From Rhabditoides inermis (Eukaryota > Nematoda > Chromadorea > Rhabditida > Rhabditidae), in assembly GCA_963966185.1 (NCBI GenBank), contig CAWZYM010000401.1, positions 600,001-664,000 on the forward strand: a stretch of DNA of 64,000 nt, in the 5' to 3' direction. Numbering within the stretch: the stretch's first letter is position 1; each line of letters opens with the position of its first letter. Under the pieces are notes generated by a model. The model ran no database searches, was not told the DNA's origin, and saw only the letters and a program-made list of their open reading frames with translations. The translations under genes and the position numbers were made by a program. Positions 9,540 through 56,976 of the stretch are shown here, piece by piece.

Positions 9540-11690
9540 GCGGGCGAGCGCGAGAGCACGCGAGAGAGCACGCTGTTTGGAGAGAGACAGATGTACTTTG
9601 GTGGCTGCGATCAGTAGGAATTTAGTAAGGGGAGAGAGAAAGAGAGAACGAGAGAACGAGAGAACGAGAGAACGAGAGAACGAGAGAACGAGAGAACGAT
9701 ATAACGAGAGAAAAGGTGAAAAAGAGAGGAGGGAAGGAGGGAAGGAGAGACGGAGAGAACGAGAGAACGAGAGAACGAGAGAAGGATAGAAAGAGAGAAC
9801 GAGAGAACGAGAGAACCAGAGAAAGAAAGAAAGATATAAAAAGAGAACGAGAGAGCTAGAGAACGAGAGAAAGAGAGAAAGGGAGAAGGAGGGAAGGAGG
9901 GATGGAGAGAAGAAGAGAAGGATAGAAAGAGAGAACGAGAGAACTAGAGAACGAAAGAAAGAGAGAAAGAGAGAAAGAGATAAAGAGAGAACGAGAGAAA
10001 GCGAGAACGATATAACGAGAGAATTAGAGAACGAGAGAAAGAGAGAATGGGAGGAGGAGGGAAGGAGGGAAGGAGAGAAAGAGAGAAAGAGAGAACGAGA
10101 AAACGAGAAAACGAGAGAAAGAGAAAACGAGAGAAAGAGAGAACGATATAACGAGAGAGCTAGAGAACGAGAGAAAGAGAGAAAGGGAGAAGGAGGGAAG
10201 GAGGGATGGAGAGAAGAAGAGAAGGAGAGAAGGAGAGAACTAGAGAAAAAAGAGAAAGAGAGAAAGAGAGAAAGAGAGAAAGAGAGAAAGAGAGAAAGAG
10301 AGAAAGAGAGAAAGAGAGAAAGAGAGAAAGAGAGAAAGAGAGAAAGAGAGAAAGAGAGAAAGAGAGAAAGAGAGAAAGAGAGAAAGAGATAATGAGAGAA
10401 CGAGAGAAAGAGAAACCGATAGAAAGAGAAAACGAGTGAAAGAGAGAACGATATAACGAGAGAACTAGAGAACGAGAGAAAGAGAGAAAGTGAGAAGGCG
10501 GGAAGGAGGGAAGGAAAGAAGGAGAGAACGAGACAACGAGAGAACGAGACAACGAGACAACGAGACAACGAGAGAACGAGAGAACGAGAAAACGAGAGAA
10601 CGAGAGAAAGAGAGAAAGAGAGAAGGAGAGAAGGAGGGAAGAAGAGAAGGAGAGACGGAGAGAACGAGAGAACGAGAGAACGAGAGAACGAGAGAAGGAT
10701 AGAAAGAGAGAACGAGATAAAGAGAGAACGAGAGAACGAGAGAACGAGAGAACGAGAAAACGAGAGAAAGAGAGAACAAGAGAAAGAGAGAACGAAAGAA
10801 AGAGAGAACGATATAACTAGAGAACGAGAGAACGAGAGAAAGAGAGAAGGAGGGTGGTAGGAGGGAAGGAGGGAAGAAGAGAAGGAGAGACGGAGAGACG
10901 GAGAAAACGAGAGAACGAGAGAACGAGAAACGAGAGAACGAGAGAACGAGAGAACGAGAGAACGAGAGAACGAGAGAAAGAGAGAAAGAGAGAAAGAGAG
11001 AACGAGAGAAAGAGAGAACTGGAGAACTAGAGAAAAAGAGAAAGGGAGAAGGAGGGAAGGAGGGAAGGAGAGAAGAAGAGAAGGAGACACGCGAGAACGA
11101 GAGAACGAGAGAACGAGAGAACGAGAGAACGAGAGAACGAGAGAACGAGAGAAAGAGAAAACGAAATAACGAGAGAACTAGATAACGAGAGAACGAGAGA
11201 ACGAGAGAAAGAGAGAAAGGGAGAAGGGGGGAAGGAGGGAAGGAGAGAAGGAGAGACGGAGAGACGGAGAGAACGAGAGAACGAGAGAACGAGAGAACGA
11301 GAGAACGAGAGAAAGAGAGAACGAGAGAAAGAGAGAAAAGAGAGAAAAGAGAGAACGAGAGAAAGAGAGAAAAGAGAGAAAGGGAGAAAGAGAGAACGAG
11401 AGAACGAGAGAACTAGAGAACGAGAGAAAGAGAGAAAGGGATAACGAGAGAACGAGAGAAAGAGAGAACGAGAGAAAGAGAGAACGAGAGAAAGAGAGAA
11501 GGAAAGAAGGAGGGAAGGAAGGAAGGAGGGAAGGAGAGGAGGAGAGGAGGAGAGAAGGGGAGAAGGAGAGAAGGAGGGAAGGAATGGGAGGAGAGAAGGA
11601 GGAAAGGAGAGGAGGAGAGAAGGAAAGAAGGAGAGAAGGAGGGAAGGAATGGAAGGAGAGAACGAGAGAACGAGAAAATATCGAATAAAT
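9540..11690. repeat. 2.1-kb purine-rich minisatellite array (GAGAGAAC/GAGAGAAA)
   Basis: This is an array of 8-bp units, mainly GAGAGAAC and GAGAGAAA. It is punctuated every 150-250 bp by blocks of GGAAGGAGGGAAGGAG type, giving an irregular higher-order structure. A perfect (GAGAAA)n-like stretch lies at about 10255-10390. The long Ser/Leu/Phe/Arg reading frame on the minus strand is just this repeat in translation. The array ends where unique AT-rich sequence begins near 11680. Confidence 0.95.
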
Positions 11691-43971: not shown

Positions 43972-43979
43972 CGCCGTTT
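43972..43979. repeat. Left target-site duplication CGCCGTTT
   Basis: The 8 bp CGCCGTTT immediately precede the first transposon base (GGCGCTATCC) and recur exactly at 56969-56976 after the last base. Confidence 0.92.
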
Positions 43980-44764
43980 GGCGCTATCCGTTCAGAGGGG
44001 GCAGGATGAATTAATTCCCAAGTCAAGGCACTTTTACCCTGTGCGCCAAAGGGCGCGGAAATTATTGCTTTCGGTCCCGCGCGTCTTCGGGGGCTTGAAA
44101 AGGGGTGAAATGAGTTTTAGGACCTGTTTTAAGTCGGTTCCAAAAATGTTTAAGATTTCTCACCATAAAATACTTCACTTTTTTCAGTCATTCACATCTC
44201 AGCTCAATCTTTGTTTCCAAAGCTGAAACTTTGGATTCTAGCATTATTTAGGTCAAGGAACACAATGGTAGGTATAGAAAAGGTCCATTTGATCCTGGGG
44301 ACCATCTCCTAATCGAGTGGTATATCTCAGTTCAAGTAATACCATTTGATCTGAAAAACAACAGAGGTATGTTTTCGAATCTCCTGAACAATATGTGATG
44401 GTTAATATTGTTGGCTGAGTGCTGGGGACCACTCCAGTCATACAAGGGACCATAACCTCGCCGATTCATCCCAGTTTGGCCGATTGGTCTGTAATTTGGC
44501 AGAGATATGTTTTCAAACCTTCGGAACAATTTCTCATGCTTTCTAACGCTGACTGGGTGCTGGGGACCATTGCAGGAGTAGTAAGGGACCAAAACTTCGC
44601 GAAGTGTCCCGTTTTCGGCTCCCGACTGCTGTGTAGCATGCGGTGAGTTATTAGGTGAGTAAAGATCATATATCACACTACAACAAGTTTAAGTGGACCC
44701 AAACCAAGCGCCAAAAAGAGACCATAATTGCAGGAAATACTTTTCTGGAGATGGGTCCAGCCAC
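43980..44764 (+). repeat. Left unique terminal inverted repeat (~785 bp)
   Basis: It matches 56184-56968 in reverse complement throughout, with very few differences visible (for example one C/T at the array junction). It contains GGGACCAT-type motifs at about 44297, 44424, 44445, 44562 and 44585. Confidence 0.92.
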
Positions 44765-47700
44765 CTGATTCCACAGCCATGCCGTGAGTGGAAATCAATG
44801 AAAAGACACTCAGTACACTGTATACAACCCATTTACACTCTCTCTTTTACCGGCCAGACTCGCTGCCCTCGACCTGAAGTGCCTACTGGCATTCCAGGGA
44901 GTGCGGCTGCGAAGCAGCCTATACATGAGTGAGAAGAGCGTGCCATGAGTGTGTTCGTTTCGATTAGACAGATAACCGATCACAGATCCCATCCTAGCCA
45001 TTCCTGGTCCCTCTCTCCACTCCGGGTGCCTGTAGGGACCATCCCGCTCGGATAGACTGTGTACCTACTAGTGTGAGCTACGAATGAACCCGGAACGCTA
45101 ACCCAGAGTAGCCAAACACTTTTTCGACTTGTTCTTCGATAGATCCTTCCGTTTTCTCCCTCTCTCCCCCTTCCCTCACTCTCTCTCTCCCTTGATCTGT
45201 ACGCCCAGTTATACCCATATCGCTCTATGGCTCTACCCGGCTGCCACCTGATTCCACAGCCATGCCGTGAGTGGAAATCAATGAAAAGACACTCAGTACA
45301 CTGTATACAACCCATTTACACTCTCTCTTTTACCGGCCAGACTCGCTGCCCTCGACCTGAAGTGCCTACTGGCATTCCAGGGAGTGCGGCTGCGAAGCAG
45401 CCTATACATGAGTGAGAAGAGCGTGCCATGAGTGTGTTCGTTTCGATTAGACAGATAACCGATCACAGATCCCATCCTAGCCATTCCTGGTCCCTCTCTC
45501 CACTCCGGGTGCCTGTAGGGACCATCCCGCTCGGATAGACTGTGTATCTACTAGTGTGAGCTACGAATGAACCCGGAACGCTAACCCAGAGTAGCCAAAC
45601 ACTTTTTCGACTTGTTCTTTGGTAGATCCTTCCGTTTTCTCCCTCTCTCCCCCTTCCCTCACTCTCTCTCCCTTGATCTGTACGCCCAGTTATACCCATA
45701 TCGCTCTATGGCTATACCCGGCTGCCACCTGATTCCACAGCCATGCCGTGAGTGGAAATCAATGAAAAGACACTCAGTACACTGTATACAACCCATTTAC
45801 ACTCTCTCTTTTACCGGCCAGACTCGCTGCCCTCGACCTGAAGTGCCTACTGGCATTCCAGGGAGTGCGGCTGCGAAGCAGCCTATACATGAGTGAGAAG
45901 AGCGTGCCATGAGTGTGTTCGTTTCGATTAGACAGATAACCGATCACAGATCCCATCCTAGCCATTCCTGGTCCCTCTCTCCACTCCGGGTGCCTGTAGG
46001 GACCATCCCGCTCGGATAGACTGTGTACCTACTAGTGTGAGCTACGAATGAACCCGGAACGCTAACCCAGAGTAGCCAAACACTTTTTCGACTTGTTCTT
46101 CGATAGATCCTTCCGTTTTCTCCCTCTCTCCCCCTTCCCTCACTCTCTCTCTCCCTTGATCTGTACGCCCAGTTATACCCATATCGCTCTATGGCTCTAC
46201 CCGGCTGCCACCTGATTCCACAGCCATGCCGTGAGTGGAAATCAATGAAAAGACACTCAGTACACTGTATACAACCCATTTACACTCTCTCTTTTACCGG
46301 CCAGACTCGCTGCCCTCGACCTGAAGTGCCTACTGGCATTCCAGGGAGTGCGGCTGCGAAGCAGCCTATACATGAGTGAGAAGAGCGTGCCATGAGTGTG
46401 TTCGTTTCGATTAGACAGATAACCGATCACAGATCCCATCCTAGCCATTCCTGGTCCCTCTCTCCACTCCGGGTGCCTGTAGGGACCATCCCGCTCGGAT
46501 AGACTGTGTATCTACTAGTGTGAGCTACGAATGAACCCGGAACGCTAACCCAGAGTAGCCAAACATTTTTTCGACTTGTTCTTCGATAGATCCTTCCGTT
46601 TTCTCCCTCTCTCCCCCTTCCCTCACTCTCTCTCTCCCTTGATCTGTACGCCCAGTTATACCCATATCGCTCTATGGCTCTACCCGGCTGCCACCTGATT
46701 CCACAGCCATGCCGTGAGTGGAAATCAATGAAAAGACACTCAGTACACTGTATACAACCCATTTACACTCTCTCTTTTACCGGCCAGACTCGCTGCCCTC
46801 GACCTGAAGTGCCTACTGGCATTCCAGGGAGTGCGGCTGCGAAGCAGCCTATACATGAGTGAGAAGAGCGTGCCATGAGTGTGTTCGTTTCGATTAGACA
46901 GATAACCTATCACAGATCCCATCCTAGCCATTCCTGGTCCCTCTCTCCACTCCGGGTTCCTGTAGGGACCATCCCGCTCGGATAGACTGTGTATCTACTA
47001 GTGTGAGCTACGAATGAACCCGGAACGCTAACCCAGAGTAGCCAAACATTTTTTCGACTTGTTCTTCGATAGATCCTTCCGTTTTCTCCCTCTCTCCCCC
47101 TTCCCTCACTCTCTCTCTCCCTTGATCTGTACGCCCAGTTATACCCATATCGCTCTATGGCTCTACCCGGCTGCCACCTGATTCCACAGCCATGCCGTGA
47201 GTGGAAATCAATGAAAAGACACTCAGTACACTGTATACAACCCATTTACACTCTCTCTTTTACCGGCCAGACTCGCTGCCCTCGACCTGAAGTGCCTACT
47301 GGCATTCCAGGGAGTGCGGCTGCGAAGCAGCCTATACATGAGTGAGAAGAGCGTGCCATGAGTGTGTTCGTTTCGATTAGACAGATAACCTATCACAGAT
47401 CCCATCCTAGCCATTCCTGGTCCCTCTCTCCACTCCGGGTTCCTGTAGGGACCATCCCGCTCGGATAGACTGTGTATCTACTAGTGTGAGCTACGAATGA
47501 ACCCGGAACGCTAACCCAGAGTAGCCAAACATTTTTTCGACTTGTTCTTCGATAGATCCTTCCGTTTTCTCCCTCTCTCCCCCTTCCCTCACTCTCTCTC
47601 CCTTGATCTGTACGCCCAGTTATACCCATATCGCTCTATGGCTCTACCCGGCTGCCACCTGATTCCACAGCCATGCCGTGAGTGGAAATCAATGAAAAGA

Positions 47701-50391
47701 CACTCAGTACACTGTATACAACCCATTTACACTCTCTCTTTTACCGGCCAGACTCGCTGCCCTCGACCTGAAGTGCCTACTGGCATTCCAGGGAGTGCGG
47801 CTGCGAAGCAGCCTATACATGAGTGAGAAGAGCGTGCCATGAGTGTGTTCGTTTCGATTAGACAGATAACCGATCACAGATCCCATCCTAGCCATTCCTG
47901 GTCCCTCTCTCCACTCCGGGTGCCTGTAGGGACCATCCCGCTCGGATAGACTGTGTACCTACTAGTGTGAGCTACGAATGAACCCGGAACGCTAACCCAG
48001 AGTAGCCAAACACTTTTTCGACTTGTTCTTCGATAGATCCTTCCGTTTTCTCCCTCTCTCCCCCTTCCCTCACTCTCTCTCCCTTGATCTGTACGCCCAG
48101 TTATACCCATATCGCTCTATGGCTCTACCCGGCTGCCACCTGATTCCACAGCCATGCCGTGAGTGGAAATCAATGAAAAGACACTCAGTACACTGTATAC
48201 AACCCATTTACACTCTCTCTTTTACCGGCCAGACTCGCTGCCCTCGACCTGAAGTGCCTACTGGCATTCCAGGGAGTGCGGCTGCGAAGCAGCCTATACA
48301 TGAGTGAGAAGAGCGTGCCATGAGTGTGTTCGTTTCGATTAGACAGATAACCGATCACAGATCCCATCCTAGCCATTCCTGGTCCCTCTCTCCACTCCGG
48401 GTGCCTGTAGGGACCATCCCGCTCGGATAGACTGTGTATCTACTAGTGTGAGCTACGAATGAACCCGGAACGCTAACCCAGAGTAGCCAAACATTTTTTC
48501 GACTTGTTCTTCGATAGATCCTTCCGTTTTCTCCCTCTCTCCCCCTTCCCTCACTCTCTCTCTCCCTTGATCTGTACGCCCAGTTATACCCATATCGCTC
48601 TATGGCTCTACCCGGCTGCCACCTGATTCCACAGCCATGCCGTGAGTGGAAATCAATGAAAAGACACTCAGTACACTGTATACAACCCATTTACACTCTC
48701 TCTTTTACCGGCCAGACTCGCTGCCCTCGACCTGAAGTGCCTACTGGCATTCCAGGGAGTGCGGCTGCGAAGCAGCCTATACATGAGTGAGAAGAGCGTG
48801 CCATGAGTGTGTTCGTTTCGATTAGACAGATAACCTATCACAGATCCCATCCTAGCCATTCCTGGTCCCTCTCTCCACTCCGGGTTCCTGTAGGGACCAT
48901 CCCGCTCGGATAGACTGTGTATCTACTAGTGTGAGCTACGAATGAACCCGGAACGCTAACCCAGAGTAGCCAAACATTTTTTCGACTTGTTCTTCGATAG
49001 ATCCTTCCGTTTTCTCCCTCTCTCCCCCTTCCCTCACTCTCTCTCTCCCTTGATCTGTACGCCCAGTTATACCCATATCGCTCTATGGCTCTACCCGGCT
49101 GCCACCTGATTCCACAGCCATGCCGTGAGTGGAAATCAATGAAAAGACACTCAGTACACTGTATACAACCCATTTACACTCTCTCTTTTACCGGCCAGAC
49201 TCGCTGCCCTCGACCTGAAGTGCCTACTGGCATTCCAGGGAGTGCGGCTGCGAAGCAGCCTATACATGAGTGAGAAGAGCGTGCCATGAGTGTGTTCGTT
49301 TCGATTAGACAGATAACCTATCACAGATCCCATCCTAGCCATTCCTGGTCCCTCTCTCCACTCCGGGTTCCTGTAGGGACCATCCCGCTCGGATAGACTG
49401 TGTATCTACTAGTGTGAGCTACGAATGAACCCGGAACGCTAACCCAGAGTAGCCAAACATTTTTTCGACTTGTTCTTCGATAGATCCTTCCGTTTTCTCC
49501 CTCTCTCCCCCTTCCCTCACTCTCTCTCCCTTGATCTGTACGCCCAGTTATACCCATATCGCTCTATGGCTCTACCCGGCTGCCACCTGATTCCACAGCC
49601 ATGCCGTGAGTGGAAATCAATGAAAAGACACTCAGTACACTGTATACAACCCATTTACACTCTCTCTTTTACCGGCCAGACTCGCTGCCCTCGACCTGAA
49701 GTGCCTACTGGCATTCCAGGGAGTGCGGCTGCGAAGCAGCCTATACATGAGTGAGAAGAGCGTGCCATGAGTGTGTTCGTTTCGATTAGACAGATAACCG
49801 ATCACAGATCCCATCCTAGCCATTCCTGGTCCCTCTCTCCACTCCGGGTTCCTGTAGGGACCATCCCGCTCGGATAGACTGTGTACCTACTAGTGTGAGC
49901 TACGAATGAACCCGGAACGCTAACCCAGAGTAGCCAAACACTTTTTCGACTTGTTCTTCGATAGATCCTTCCGTTTTCTCCCTCTCTCCCCCTTCCCTCA
50001 CTCTCTCTCTCCCTTGATCTGTACGCCCAGTTATACCCATATCGCTCTATGGCTCTACCCGGCTGCCACCTGATTCCACAGCCATGCCGTGAGTGGAAAT
50101 CAATGAAAAGACACTCAGTACACTGTATACAACCCATTTACACTCTCTCTTTTACCGGCCAGACTCGCTGCCCTCGACCTGAAGTGCCTACTGGCATTCC
50201 AGGGAGTGCGGCTGCGAAGCAGCCTATACATGAGTGAGAAGAGCGTGCCATGAGTGTGTTCGTTTCGATTAGACAGATAACCGATCACAGATCCCATCCT
50301 AGCCATTCCTGGTCCCTCTCTCCACTCCGGGTGCCTGTAGGGACCATCCCGCTCGGATAGACTGTGTACCTACTAGTGTGAGCTACGAATG
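44765..50391 (+). repeat. Left subterminal tandem array, 481/483-bp unit, 12 copies
   Basis: Units start with CTGATTCCACAGCCATGCCG at 44765, 45248, 45729, 46212, 46695, 47178, 47659, 48140, 48623, 49106, 49587 and 50070; the last is truncated. The 2-bp length difference comes from one CT dinucleotide in a CTCTCTCT run. Each unit holds a hairpin GGCTGCGAAGCAGCC and a GGGACCAT motif. Short reading frames repeated in every unit (62, 63, 78, 94 and 111 codons) are not genes. Confidence 0.95.
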
Positions 50392-50723
50392 AAAAGCTAC
50401 GAATGGCATCTAATGAACGGGCTCATTATATGTAGTGTCTGACCTCTTTTTTTGAGGTTACAGTAGTTTGAATGGTGGTGTCGCCTCGGGATACGAGAGC
50501 AAATATTGAAGAACAAAGGGATAGCTGCGCGCATCTCACTGACGCATGGTTTTTTTTTGCTTTTTGTTGTTGTTTTGAAACAGTTATTGGAACTGTAGTT
50601 AATACGTTCATAAGATTGCTATTGATAGATGAACCGTCAAGGGAGAAGGGGGGCCGTATCGCACCAAGGCATCGACCACCGAGAGTTCTCAACAACCTAT
50701 GGCCTCTTCCATTCACTGTTTTT
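50392..50723. other. Transposon core, 5' flank of transposase A
   Basis: Unique sequence between the left array and the first recognisable transposase A exon. It probably contains the promoter. An open frame extends upstream to 50472 but shows no recognisable domain. Confidence 0.5.
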
Positions 50724-52209
50724 ATGAAATGGTTCTCTTTCGCTTATCTCTTTTTCAAACTCTGGGCAATGAATGATCGCGATGTTCAATTCACCTTCGC
50801 TCATCTCGGTAAGTGTTTGCAAATATATGTATATGCGAAGTTTTTCATTTTCTTTTCAAGGAATACATCATAAAAGGAGAGAGTGTTCCGAGTGCCATGG
50901 AGATATGACGAAACAGAAGCACAGTGGAGGGTTAGTCGTATGAACTTTCAATTAGAAAAGAGATCAGAAGTTACACAACTGCTGATTTCAGGCACCGGTG
51001 GGAGTGCAGATGTACAGTTCCGGTTACTGGAAAGAAGCAGACTATTGGACTTTTCGTTGGAACAATTTTTACCGAGATTCCTATGGCTCTTCACAAAAAA
51101 CGATGAAGTGAGTTTTTTTTCAGTCCATCCAAGTCTCTTTTTTGTATATTTCATTTCCTCACAGGAGAAAGGGCGGATGGGCGGACAAGGCACTATTGTG
51201 CAGATCGATGAGACCAAGGTGTCTAAAACGACACAAACTCGACCGTAAGTGGTTGTCTGTATGTTTTCAAATTCTACCTTGGAAACCGCATGTTCGATTT
51301 GCCACAGTAGAGCGCAGAGCATTTGATCTACTGGTTTGCAAGGATACGATTTGTCGGTGGGATAATCTCATCCGTTCCATTATTCGGGAATACTACATCG
51401 AGGTAAGATCCATATTCCAGTCTACCTACCAAATAATTCAACTACAGGTGATGGGCAGACTGGGAGGGCCCGGTACGGTTGTGGAGGTGGATGATGTGAA
51501 AGTAGTGAAAAGGAAATACCATCGTGGACGGTCCGTTATGAATGAGAATTAATATTAATAACTAATCACTATTGCAGAATGGTAAGGAGTGACTGGATCG
51601 TGCTAGGCGCCCAACGCCACAACCAGGGAGTTCGACCGAAGGTGTTTCTCGAATTGGTCTCTCAACGCAACCCTGCAATCATCGAGGACATCATTTTGGA
51701 TCATGTTCAACCGGGGGGAGAGATACACACAGGTCAGCTGATGTACTGTAAAGTACTGTATCAGAATGGAATACTGTAATGTACCGTAATGCATGCCTAC
51801 TGGGAGCTCTAATAACACGATGGAACGATTTGTAATGAAACGATTGCATAAACTTGTAGACACCTACCGTGGATACAGTAACCTGAACCAGCATGGATTC
51901 ACCCATCGTCAAGTTGTTCGAGGGCGCCGCTTCATGAACCCCGTTAATGGAGCGCACACACAACTGGAGACCGGAATGTGGTGCGTCTCAGTTTCATTGT
52001 TAATATAACGCTTAAACTTTCCTTATTATTATGTTAATTGTTGCAGGAGTCATCTGAAAACGCATGTGAAGCTGAGGCGAGGCGTCGCCGGAGGACACAG
52101 CCGGTTCGACAACCACTTTTACGAGGCGCTGTTCTTCTACGAGTTTGAAGAAGGAAGCCGGCTGTTCGAGTTCTGGAGCATTGTCAAGCGACGCTATCCC
52201 TGCACATGA
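50724..52209 (+). CDS. Merlin/IS1595-type DDE transposase A (rearranged copy)
   Basis: Recognisable exons: about 50724-50808, 50861-50930, 50992-about 51103, about 51165-51239, about 51305-51402, 51448-51530, 51578-51732, 51860-51980, 52047-52209. The N-terminal part has zinc-ligand pairs CSEC and ECRC and the family motif GKKQTIGLFVGTIF. The C-terminal half is complete: VVEVDDVKVVKRKYHRGR (first catalytic Asp), IHTDTYRGYSN (second Asp, formed across the splice 51732/51860), NGAHTQLETGMWSHLK (catalytic Glu). Oddities: a second copy of the first motif, GTIVQIDETKV, lies upstream at about 51180. The helical segment expected between zinc and DDE regions appears only after it. My join at about 51104 meets a TGA. 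It is probably a chimaeric or decaying copy, though alternative splicing could rescue it. AATAAA follows the stop. Confidence 0.65.
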
Positions 52210-52257
52210 GCCATTCCGAAAATGTTTATGATATTGTATTCACGCACAAGTATTGCG

Positions 52258-52263
52258 AATAAA
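52258..52263 (+). terminator. Polyadenylation signal AATAAA of transposase A
   Basis: AATAAA lies about 50 bp after the TGA of transposase A. Confidence 0.6.
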
Positions 52264-52534
52264 CTGTACTCATCGACAAAACACAACAATTTCATAGTGC
52301 GCTTATAAATGAAACAACACGCACTCAACAGAATAAAATCATGATCGTGACCTGGAGTGGGATTCAAGTCCCCAGCAAAAATTGAGTGATAGATAGAGCC
52401 CCCGAAAGAGTGAGTGAAACGTGAGAAAACGAAACGTTAGCGTGAAATTCGGAATATACTCGACTTTAATCCCACTCCTGGAGAAGGATAACTACATCGA
52501 AATACACATATCAACAGTGATACACGCTTTCTGC

Positions 52535-53825
52535 TCAGGTGCAGTGGTAGCGCTCGAACACCTCGACCCAGAACTTGGTGAGCTTGTTTGCAGTGCTGCT
52601 CTCCTGCTTCCAGGCATTCTCGTACCAATGATAGGGCCAGTGATCGCCTCGCACGCCGTTCTTGCGGTGCTGTCGCCTCTTCAGCCCTCCCCTAGACATT
52701 TTGATATGTATTCCAGTTCCGTTCACCGAATCTCACCAGCTGCCTTCGATTCCGTTCGTATGGTAGCCGGTGACAGGGTCAACGAGATTCGCGGAGTGGT
52801 TGACACTCTGATGCTGGACGCCGATCGTCGGAAGCTGATTGTAGCCGGCCCAGCAGTCTGAACCATTCCAATTGAAATATTTGATCACACAAACGTTCTC
52901 TTCACCTGTACGAACGACTCCACCGGGAGCGACGTGAGACCCCACGAGGGGAACAAGGGTCGCAGTCGAGCGGTTCTGCACGGTTTCGAGGAAGAGACGG
53001 CCGCTGCCTTCCTCGAACCCCCCGACAAGCCAATCCGGACGAACGCGCCTGCAGGAAACAGATATGTCTACAAAAAAGACGGTATTGCCTACCTGCCCTT
53101 GTTGTTCGTTCGCTTTGTCACTTTCGATTCGTCGACCTGGACGACCGTGTTGGGGCCTCCCAGGGTGCGATCATTCAGCTCGATCTCCTGCATCTCCCTG
53201 ATCCACAGATCCCACTGGCACACTGTGTTCTTGTCCACCCCCAGATCAGCCGCCCGGTGAACCACCGTCCCCATGTCATTGAGGAAAAGGTATGAGGACA
53301 AAAAGAACAAACGGCGTTTCGGAATATTCGCGAAGAACGATCCAACCGCCCTGCCAATCCGCATCCTCTTTCCATTTCCCATTTTGAGGCAGTTGGCGCG
53401 CCGACATAGGAATCTGCGCGCACCGCTCTTCTCGATTGTCATTGGGAGGTTGCAGCGAGGGCAGTCATGTCCGGAACACATAAGCCCTGAATTCACTGGT
53501 ACTGGATGTACATAGATAAATTTATCTGCTGGAATCTTAGATGCACGGATGCGCAATTAACAAAATAGCAAAACTTTCAAATGTCAAATATACACTTGTG
53601 CAGAAAATTACTGCCGAAAGGGGAATCCACCATATATCCGTATCACTTCACTTGTGTAATGTATCTTGCCTAACAGGAAATACACGCGAACTCACCTCGA
53701 TCGGACAGCCACGAGTCGAAATCAGGGTCCGTCATATCCATCAACTCAGCCCACCCATTGCATAGCGTGAAGAATTTGAGACTCTTTTGGAGAAGCTTTC
53801 TCTTCTCAACGCGAGAGTCATCCAT
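52535..53825 (-). CDS. Merlin/IS1595-type DDE transposase B, intact, 327 aa
   Basis: Minus-strand exons 53825-53696, 53525-53093, 53048-52906, 52857-52737 and 52691-52535 join with perfect phase to 327 residues. The start is MDDSRVEKRKLLQKS. Next comes a zinc-ribbon-like region (CSGHDCPRC ... FLCRRANC), the motif KRMRIGRAVGSFF, and a helix-turn-helix-like stretch VDKNTVCQWDLWIREM. The ISXO2-like catalytic domain carries GGPNTVVQVDESKVTKR (Asp 1), VVRTDCWAGYNQL (Asp 2) and GYHTNGIEGSW (Glu). The Asp-2 codon and the Trp codon after the Glu are both split by introns, exactly as in transposase A, so the two genes share intron positions and descend from one intron-containing ancestor. Cut-and-paste mobilisation through the terminal repeats is the expected role. 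Because it is intact, the element could be autonomous. Confidence 0.92.
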
Positions 53826-54052
53826 GACGACTACAAATGAATAACATTATATACAACAGGAATGATAACATAAAAAAATGAAATAAATAAATAATAATCC
53901 GAAAAAGAAATGGATTTGGACAATCACACAGAAACAGACTCCTGTCCAGACTGGAAGGAATTTTCTCAGTTTCAATGTAACAGTGTTTGCGTGCTGCCAG
54001 GGGGATGGAACTGAGAATTAATATTCATATTGTGAGTTTTATGACAAGTTTG

Positions 54053-56183
54053 CTGTCTATTCGAAACGAACACACTCATGGCACGCTCTTCTCACTCATG
54101 TATAGGCTGCTTCGCAGCCGCACTCCCTGGAATGCCAGTAGGCACTTCAGGTCGAGGGCAGCGAGTCTGGCCGGTAAAAGAGAGAGTGTAAATGGGTTGT
54201 ATACAGTGTACTGAGTGTCTTTTCATTGATTTCCACTCACGGCATGGCTGTGGAATCAGGTGGCAGCCGGGTAGAGCCATAGAGCGATATGGGTATAACT
54301 GGGCGTACAGATCAAGGGAGAGAGAGTGAGGGAAGGGGGAGAGAGGGAGAAAACGGAAGGATCTATCGAAGAACAAGTCGAAAAAGTGTTTGGCTACTCT
54401 GGGTTAGCGTTCCGGGTTCATTCGTAGCTCACACTAGTAGGTACACAGTCTATCCGAGCGGGATGGTCCCTACAGGCACCCGGAGTGGAGAGAGGGACCA
54501 GGAATGGCTAGGATGGGATCTGTGATCGGTTATCTGTCTAATCGAAACGAACACACTCATGGCACGCTCTTCTCACTCATGTATAGGCTGCTTCGCAGCC
54601 GCACTCCCTGGAATGCCAGTAGGCACTTCAGGTCGAGGGCAGCGAGTCTGGCCGGTAAAAGAGAGAGTGTAAATGGGTTGTATACAGTGTACTGAGTGTC
54701 TTTTCATTGATTTCCACTCACGGCATGGCTGTGGAATCAGGTGGCAGCCGGGTATAGCCATAGAGCGATATGGGTATAACTGGGCGTACAGATCAAGGGA
54801 GAGAGAGTGAGGGAAGGGGGAGAGAGGGAGAAAACGGAAGGATCTACCAAAGAACAAGTCGAAAATGTGTTTGGCTACCCTGGGTTAGCGTTCCGGGTTC
54901 ATTCGTAGCTCACACTAGTAGGTACACAGTCTATCCGAGCGGGATGGTCCCTACAGGCACCCGGAGTGGAGAGAGGGACCAGGAATGGCTAGGATGGGAT
55001 CTGTGATCGGTTATCTGTCTAATCGAAACGAACACACTCATGGCACGCTCTTCTCACTCATGTATAGGCTGCTTCGCAGCCGCACTCCCTGGAATGCCAG
55101 TAGGCACTTCAGGTCGAGGGCAGCGAGTCTGGCCGGTAAAAGAGAGAGTGTAAATGGGTTGTATACAGTGTACTGAGTGTCTTTTCATTGATTTCCACTC
55201 ACGGCATGGCTGTGGAATCAGGTGGCAGCCGGGTAGAGCCATAGAGCGATATGGGTATAACTGGGCGTACAGATCAAGGGAGAGAGAGTGAGGGAAGGGG
55301 GAGAGAGGGAGAAAACGGAAGGATCTATCGAAGAACAAGTCGAAAAAGTGTTTGGCTACTCTGGGTTAGCGTTCCGGGTTCATTCGTAGCTCACACTAGT
55401 AGATACACAGTCTATCCGAGCGGGATGGTCCCTACAGGAACCCGGAGTGGAGAGAGGGACCAGGAATGGCTAGGATGGGATCTGTGATCGGTTATCTGTC
55501 TAATCGAAACGAACACACTCATGGCACGCTCTTCTCACTCATGTATAGGCTGCTTCGCAGCCGCACTCCCTGGAATGCCAGTAGGCACTTCAGGTCGAGG
55601 GCAGCGAGTCTGGCCGGTAAAAGAGAGAGTGTAAATGGGTTGTATACAGTGTACTGAGTGTCTTTTCATTGATTTCCACTCACGGCATGGCTGTGGAATC
55701 AGGTGGCAGCCGGGTATAGCCATAGAGCGATATGGGTATAACTGGGCGTACAGATCAAGGGAGAGAGAGTGAGGGAAGGGGGAGAGAGGGAGAAAACGGA
55801 AGGATCTACCAAAGAACAAGTCGAAAATGTGTTTGGCTACCCTGGGTTAGCGTTCCGGGTTCATTCGTAGCTCACACTAGTAGATACACAGTCTATCCGA
55901 GCGGGATGGTCCCTACAGGAACCCGGAGTGGAGAGAGGGACCAGGAATGGCTAGGATGGGATCTGTGATCGGTTATCTGTCTAATCGAAACGAACACACT
56001 CATGGCACGCTCTTCTCACTCATGTATAGGCTGCTTCGCAGCCGCACTCCCTGGAATGCCAGTAGGCACTTCAGGTCGAGGGCAGCGAGTCTGGCCGGTA
56101 AAAGAGAGAGTGTAAATGGGTTGTATACAGTGTACTGAGTGTCTTTTCATTGATTTCCACTCACGGCATGGCTGTGGAATCAA
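54053..56183 (-). repeat. Right subterminal tandem array, 481-bp unit, 5 copies
   Basis: The same unit as the left array in reverse orientation. Copy boundaries are at 54259, 54740, 55221, 55702 and 56183; the innermost copy is a 207-bp fragment. Units alternate between two sequence variants (CGAAGAACAAG versus CCAAAGAACAAG), a 962-bp dimeric higher-order repeat. Confidence 0.95.
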
Positions 56184-56968
56184 GTGGCTGGACCCATCTC
56201 CAGAAAAGTATTTCCTGCAATTATGGTCTCTTTTTGGCGCTTGGTTTGGGTCCACTTAAACTTGTTGTAGTGTGATATATGATCTTTACTCACCTAATAA
56301 CTCACCGCATGCTACACAGCAGTCGGGAGCCGAAAACGGGACACTTCGCGAAGTTTTGGTCCCTTACTACTCCTGCAATGGTCCCCAGCACCCAGTCAGC
56401 GTTAGAAAGCATGAGAAATTGTTCCGAAGGTTTGAAAACATATCTCTGCCAAATTACAGACCAATCGGCCAAACTGGGATGAATCGGCGAGGTTATGGTC
56501 CCTTGTATGACTGGAGTGGTCCCCAGCACTCAGCCAACAATATTAACCATCACATATTGTTCAGGAGATTCGAAAACATACCTCTGTTGTTTTTCAGATC
56601 AAATGGTATTACTTGAACTGAGATATACCACTCGATTAGGAGATGGTCCCCAGGATCAAATGGACCTTTTCTATACCTACCATTGTGTTCCTTGACCTAA
56701 ATAATGCTAGAATCCAAAGTTTCAGCTTTGGAAACAAAGATTGAGCTGAGATGTGAATGACTGAAAAAAGTGAAGTATTTTATGGTGAGAAATCTTAAAC
56801 ATTTTTGGAACCGACTTAAAACAGGTCCTAAAACTCATTTCACCCCTTTTCAAGCCCCCGAAGACGCGCGGGACCGAAAGCAATAATTTCCGCGCCCTTT
56901 GGCGCACAGGGTAAAAGTGCCTTGACTTGGGAATTAATTCATCCTGCCCCCTCTGAACGGATAGCGCC
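56184..56968 (-). repeat. Right unique terminal inverted repeat (~785 bp)
   Basis: The reverse complement of 43980-44764, ending GGATAGCGCC at the duplication CGCCGTTT. Confidence 0.92.
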
Positions 56969-56976
56969 CGCCGTTT
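56969..56976. repeat. Right target-site duplication CGCCGTTT
   Basis: An exact match to 43972-43979. The empty site would read CATCACC-CGCCGTTT-CTCGATCG. Confidence 0.92.

Follow-up and report, generated by a model that had tools for sequence, protein, structure and literature searches.

A recently mobile Merlin-type transposon family with array-bearing inverted arms and up to three transposase genes

The DNA analysed here, called the window, is a stretch of 64,000 nucleotides in which positions 43980-56968 combine inverted repeats, tandem arrays and transposase sequence. The question raised by this locus is whether such a large block is a single mobile element, to which class it belongs and how it acquired its size. 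As described below, the block is one transposable element of 12,989 bp, and we interpret it as a copy of a recently mobile cut-and-paste transposon of the Merlin type (IS1595/ISXO2-like DDE transposase) with Foldback-type arms. To this interpretation, including the mechanism proposed below, we give a probability of about 0.85. The features of the element are the following:

43972..43979, left 8-bp target duplication, CGCCGTTT
43980..44759, plus strand, unique outer part of the left inverted repeat (tip), 780 bp, terminus GGCGCTATCC, with 99-100% matches at other loci
44760..50393, plus strand, subterminal array of the left arm, with 11 complete units of 483 bp and a further 329 bp
50394..54052, core, derived by deletion from the 5,164-bp core found in copy C527
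50724..51254, plus strand, remnant of gene A1, in pieces 50724-50810, 50839-50931, 50990-51115 and 51159-51254
51301..52209, plus strand, remnant of gene A2, in pieces 51301-51543, 51561-51776, 51856-51984 and 52048-52206, then a stop
52535..53825, minus strand, gene B, 328 aa, DDE triad, PF12762 domain, splice sites placed by hand; exons 53825-53696, 53528-53093, 53048-52906, 52857-52737 and 52691-52535
54053..56188, minus strand, subterminal array of the right arm, with 4 complete units and a further 212 bp, inverted with respect to the left array
56189..56968, minus strand, unique outer part of the right inverted repeat (tip), terminus GGATAGCGCC
56969..56976, right 8-bp target duplication, CGCCGTTT

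An earlier description of this locus, made from its letters only (the sequence-only reading), had proposed an 8-mer at both edges and reciprocal termini, and both were read directly as CGCCGTTT and GGCGCTATCC/GGATAGCGCC. It had also proposed about 785 bp of unique inverted repeat. The two tips are indeed identical over 785 bp read inward, but the array starts after 780 bp, the first 5 bp of its first unit matching too. The inverted tandem arrays that it saw on both sides were recovered by Tandem Repeats Finder, with a 483-bp unit repeated 11.7 times on the left (44760-50393) and a 481-bp unit repeated 4.4 times in the opposite orientation on the right (54053-56188). These long inverted arms with internal tandem repeats correspond to a Foldback-type architecture, and the ~483-bp arrays in both of them bear out the proposal that subterminal satellites enlarged the element. 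The core between the arms (50394-54052) carries IS1595-type transposase sequence on both strands.

Other copies were sought with the 780-bp tip in the assembly (172.6 Mb, 599 contigs), which gave 60 matches, the best candidates among them being scored. Ten two-ended copies and two one-ended ones (C584 and C488) were read, which represent together eight insertion loci as judged by their flanks. The two-ended copies measure 12,989 bp (window and C523), 10,161 bp (C527 and C526), 10,402 bp (C225), 6,960 bp (C226), 9,804 bp (C495), 11,723 bp (C494), 10,764 bp (C398) and 12,804 bp (C399), in such a way that the size of the element ranges from 7.0 to 13.0 kb and that of the arms from 2.5 to 6.4 kb. 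C527 and C526 have identical sequences once one of them is turned, C526 and C226 represent alternative forms of the insertion at a single site, and C584 is identical to C398 at 1,500 of 1,500 bases on the left. The GGCGCTATCC terminus was found at both ends in 10 out of 10 two-ended copies, two of them being identical to others.

Matching octamers flank the element on both sides at seven of the eight loci. At six of them the two octamers lie within one contig (CGCCGTTT, GGTTTTTT, CCGGCATG, AATAAAGG, CATTACTG and ATTGGTTG), and at the seventh the octamer AACATCTA was read on C399 for the left side and on C488 for the right; the octamer TTTTAATC was read on the left side only. Since the same ends were found again elsewhere, flanked by other 8-bp duplications, the ends of the window element are not due to chance. 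The true ends and the 8-bp duplication claimed from the single locus are confirmed in this way, and the search for copies with different true ends, by which that claim could have failed, found the same ends at the other loci. In addition, a search with joined flanks, followed by reading of the matches, revealed empty alleles with one octamer copy each on other contigs for five of the eight loci (C495 on C26, C494 on C148, C527 on C77 and C78, C399-left/C488 on C134 and C136, and C523-left on C29, in this last case with only the left side of the insertion seen). The same search of the assembly found no empty allele for the window locus, C526/C226 or C398/C584. The seven loci with matching octamers, five with an empty allele, show that the ends are real and that the family has moved recently. 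The youth attributed to the element holds for the family on account of the five empty alleles, but not for the window insertion, for which none was found.

Three of the ten two-ended copies (C523, C225 and C399) have mixed flanks, with left and right sides from different loci. The element in C523 is letter-identical to the window element and its right flank equals that of the window at 376 of 376 bases, so it is not an independent copy; its left flank is the site also present on C29. In C225, the right flank is that of C527 (300/300) and the left one is of the C226 type, with 118 bases matched and no identity over 300, whereas the right flank of C399 equals that of C398 over the 20 bases present. 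These mixed flanks were probably produced by a switch of the assembler inside the element, and recombination could also have generated them. Given this probable switch, the array numbers of any single copy are uncertain, and the mixed flanks likewise make uncertain the assignment of cores to the TTTTAATC and AACATCTA loci. If the inverted arms and arrays were themselves an artefact, with repeats folded or duplicated by the assembler, such joins between loci in 3/10 copies, as well as the end of contig C398 only 20 bp beyond the element, would be expected. This explanation is scarcely credible, however, having in mind that different octamers match exactly between left and right at 7/8 loci, once across two contigs, that the empty alleles read retain exactly one octamer, and that a diverged relative, 80% identical in the tip, is built on the same plan.

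The gene content was established in C527, whose 5,164-bp core, shared with C526 and C225, has three paralogous genes in the order A1>, A2>, <B, encoding 301 aa (+), 314 aa (+) and 328 aa (-), respectively. The complete set is present only in these three copies, all with one core sequence. Exon models were built with GT..AG splice sites placed by hand and contain 16 introns of 44-167 bp, 14 of them of 44-66 bp and the others of 127 and 167 bp. Protein identity is 44% between A1 and A2, 39% between A1 and B and 34% between A2 and B. All three models contain the PF12762 domain (DDE_Tnp_IS1595), with 58.8 bits for A1, 54.2 for B and 47.5 for A2 against a cut-off of 27, spliced models being needed for this, as the domain was found in one of five single open frames. 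The two transposase genes described from the window alone are consequently too few for the fuller copies, and what had been taken there for one plus-strand transposase gene is the joined remnants of A1 and A2. The A1 remnant lacks 131 bp inside and its 3' half, that of A2 lacks the first ~107 residues, and B alone is open, in all five exons. With two of its three transposase genes broken, the window copy is not the complete element.

The assignment to Merlin/IS1595 made in the sequence-only reading is upheld by the PF12762 domain, the GG ends and the 8-bp duplication at 7/8 loci, Merlin elements being known for duplications of 8 or 9 bp, together with the DDE triad in B and A1. A Pfam scan at E 0.1 returned PF12762 alone, apart from a match of A1 and A2 to an IS66 DDE domain that stayed below the cut-off. 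A P-type transposase, as in Galileo and the P superfamily, was not found, PF12762 being the only domain above cut-off, and a Mutator affiliation, as in Tm1, is not indicated either, given the 8-bp duplication and the lack of a Mutator domain in the Pfam scan.

A diverged relative in the same genome allowed the age of the gene trio to be considered. This element, on C333, is 7,991 bp long, with ends GGTGCTATC and an 8-bp duplication, TTATGATG, and has B, A2 and A1 in the same order and orientation as C527, mirrored. Its tip is 80% identical to that of the window family over 346 aligned bp, its ~475-480-bp arm repeats are ~68-71% identical to the window-family unit over longer alignments, and its proteins are 72% (B), 49% (A2) and 46% (A1) identical to those of C527 over the aligned parts; the copy is decayed, with A1 truncated and B frameshifted. 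In a seven-row protein tree, B grouped with B (96/96) and A2 with A2 (98/99), the A1 pair being without resolution. The shared gene order and these pairings indicate that the trio probably predates the split from C333. A second diverged relative, at C280:259900-266500, has inverted arms of ~1.4 kb that are 99% identical and, on one side, some five tandem units of ~481 bp; the part read matches gene B only at the end of B, and no clear octamer was found at its edges. With repeats of ~475-482 bp in the arms of both C333 and C280, for the most part 66-71% identical to the window-family unit over longer alignments, the array-bearing arm is not unique to the window family, and the idea of an innovation of a single lineage has to be abandoned.

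Three paralogous genes, one of them reversed and with 34-44% identity among them, could also be the product of two or three Merlin insertions that landed in one another, in which case the block would not be one mobile unit. We consider such a composite unlikely, because the whole unit is found at several loci with one pair of ends and one octamer, because the three-gene order is common to C333 and probably predates the split, and because, in C527, the window element and C333 alike, the end pattern GG[CT]GCTATC is confined to the two termini. The trio could still go back to an old nesting event whose product became fixed as a single unit. What moves now is, in our interpretation, a single Merlin transposon, whose full copies carry A1>, A2> and <B between inverted arms, each consisting of a 780-bp tip followed by ~480-bp repeats in variable number.

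The catalytic residues were compared in a ten-row alignment that included B, A1, A2, the A2 of C333 and six database relatives (P0002-P0007; P0001, P0008 and P0009 were left out). The protein search had given one weak match with B alone and nine with a four-row alignment. Eight of the 10 proteins have E as the third acidic residue, and B and A1 have all three (D, D, E); the A2 proteins of C527 and C333 show T and C at the third catalytic column, with an E one place earlier. These residues suggest that A1 and B, with a complete DDE triad, are most likely the proteins that cut and rejoin the GG-ended termini, making staggered target cuts of 8 bp, and that A2, with its third acidic residue displaced, would more likely bind ends or partners than cut. 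Upstream of the DDE domain, four N-terminal cysteines are invariant in all ten proteins, including relatives without a Pfam zinc-ribbon call. The PF12760 zinc ribbon was not matched in A1, A2 or B, also when the N-terminal parts were searched, and the Merlins described so far are reported, in the available part of PMC8101967, to be devoid of the N-terminal zinc ribbon of IS1595; the four cysteines likely represent a diverged form of it.

The loss of coding sequence can be followed between copies. Two deletions, one of 131 bp and one of ~1.35 kb, interrupt A1 and A2 in the window copy and in C523; in the window copy, the junction of the larger one has a filler of ~20 bp matching the 3' end of A1. 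C226 and C526, with 250 identical bp of flank per side, differ only in an internal deletion of 3,201 bp, at which 2 bp of filler are present. C226 retained A1 and lost A2 and B, whereas C494, C495, C398, C399 and C584 retained B and the 3' part of A2 (for B in C494/C495, on the basis of open segments of C494 plus sequence matches). Fillers at deletion junctions fit repair after a break. For this reason, we propose that coding cores are lost by internal deletion, probably through abortive gap repair after excision, and that core-deleted copies may afterwards be mobilised in trans. The window contains a deletion derivative of this kind, with B intact.

Having in mind these losses, it is possible that the genes are redundant, in such a way that only B (or A1) matters, A2 decays by chance and the arrays are a neutral satellite growth. 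We take this possibility seriously but lean against it. It would account for the presence of copies with B only (C494 and C495) at sites for which empty alleles exist, for the lack of the usual glutamate in A2 and for the deletion of A1 and A2 in several copies. B-only copies may, however, have been moved in trans, and A2 has kept an open frame throughout the exons read from C527 and from C333, at ~50% identity and with saturated synonymous change, unlike a neutral pseudogene. Between C527 and C333, A2 gave a dN of 0.42 over 247 codons, estimated from the five later C333 exons with the first one left out, and a dS that was not computable and was taken as saturated; for B the values were a dS of 3.3 and a dN of 0.30 over 311 codons, this dN being inflated because the alignment was fragmented and partly out of frame near the C333 frameshift. 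These values indicate that A2 was probably under constraint. A more speculative extension, doubtful in our opinion, is that the element is a multi-subunit eukaryotic DDE transposon, in which A1 and B would be catalytic, A2 an altered sister, and the repeat units would multiply binding sites, so that arm length would tune activity. The presence of the altered and conserved A2 within a three-gene set in two diverged elements makes a division of labour between paralogues testable.

To compare the arrays, whose number of full units varies from 3 to 11 per arm among the six copies used, 66 full units were taken from the window, C527, C226, C495, C494 and C398, leaving out C523, C526, C225 and C399. 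They correspond to 30 distinct sequences; six C226 units repeat those of C527, as the arms of both copies are identical, and are counted twice in the comparison. On average, units from the two arms of one element were 99.0-99.5% identical in the window copy, C527 and C226, compared to 97.2-98.2% when units of these copies were set against those of other lineages, so that units are more alike within lineages; the between-arm value was lower in C495 (98.4%), C494 (98.9%) and C398 (99.0%). In the left array of the window, units 4-6 recur exactly as units 8-10, a pattern that fits unequal exchange. Arrays would grow and shrink by this process and be homogenised between the two arms. Among the matches listed for the array unit, all are on contigs carrying the Merlin family.

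The heptamer GGGACCA is present five times in one orientation in the 780-bp tip, a number not reached in any of 300 shuffles; the motif was chosen post hoc, and in 3 out of 300 shuffled tips the most frequent 7-mer also attains 5 occurrences. It occurs once per strand of the array unit, is not found in the core, appears 3 times in the C333 tip and 5 times in that of C280, and is absent from the units of both relatives. It is a candidate binding site, to be taken as a lead and not as evidence.

The family was compared with known systems through the available parts of the corresponding papers. In PMC8101967, Merlin inverted repeats measure 24-462 bp and the related bacterial IS1595 family has a single transposase gene, compared to tips identical over 785 bp, arms of 2.5-6.4 kb, a total of 7.0-13.0 kb and three genes in the family described here. 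The same source reports internal tandem repeats in some Merlin families, so repeats as such are not new in Merlin; as described there, they are not inverted arrays forming both arms, unlike those of the window family. Long repetitive or composite inverted arms of variable length, in several forms, are likewise described for Galileo (PMC3573991), Tetris (PMC4079207) and Tm1 (PMC3169594), but Galileo belongs to the P superfamily, Tm1 to Mutator, with a duplication of 9 bp instead of 8, and Tetris is nonautonomous, with an arm unit of ~220 bp instead of ~480. In the open-access literature, as covered by titles and the openings of abstracts and without Repbase, no Merlin with array-bearing inverted arms was found, and the literature search returned no paper on paralogous transposases. 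We provisionally regard the array-armed Merlin as a new form of an arm type already known, from those sources, in Galileo, Tetris and Tm1. A Merlin with repeat-filled arms, known from P- and Mutator-type elements, suggests that this plan evolves repeatedly whatever the transposase, and the near-identical copies and empty alleles in one assembly offer a system for tracking array growth and gap repair.

Other traces of related sequences were observed in the assembly. C375:464440-473222 has 17 tandem repeats of ~533 bp near decayed gene B sequence, each containing tip positions 13 to ~266 at 92-95% identity, and is apparently a satellite born from a piece of the transposon tip; in the available part of PMC4079207, the arm repeats of Tetris are described as having seeded satellites, as the tip piece may have done here. 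Pieces 77-79% like tip positions 139-483 are found at four places on C83 and at C1:347300. Partial tips on C312 and C355 keep the terminus (97% over 199 and 72 bp) and another on C209 is 92% identical over part of the tip; the three are possibly older, broken copies. The part read of C185:122800-127200 has a coding fragment resembling B, ~50% identical, that does not match the C527 element at the DNA level.

Two further features of the genome were noted. At positions 9634-11675, the window contains a 2-kb array of ~254 copies of the 8-bp unit GAGAGAAC. Fifty candidates for an SL1-like spliced-leader RNA were scored, all below the Rfam cut-off (best E 3.5e-9), and none was detected in 14 control genomes; together with the short introns, these candidates indicate a nematode host. 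Eight SL1-like RNA matches lie in C109:1419-11609 with a spacing of 1,442 bp.
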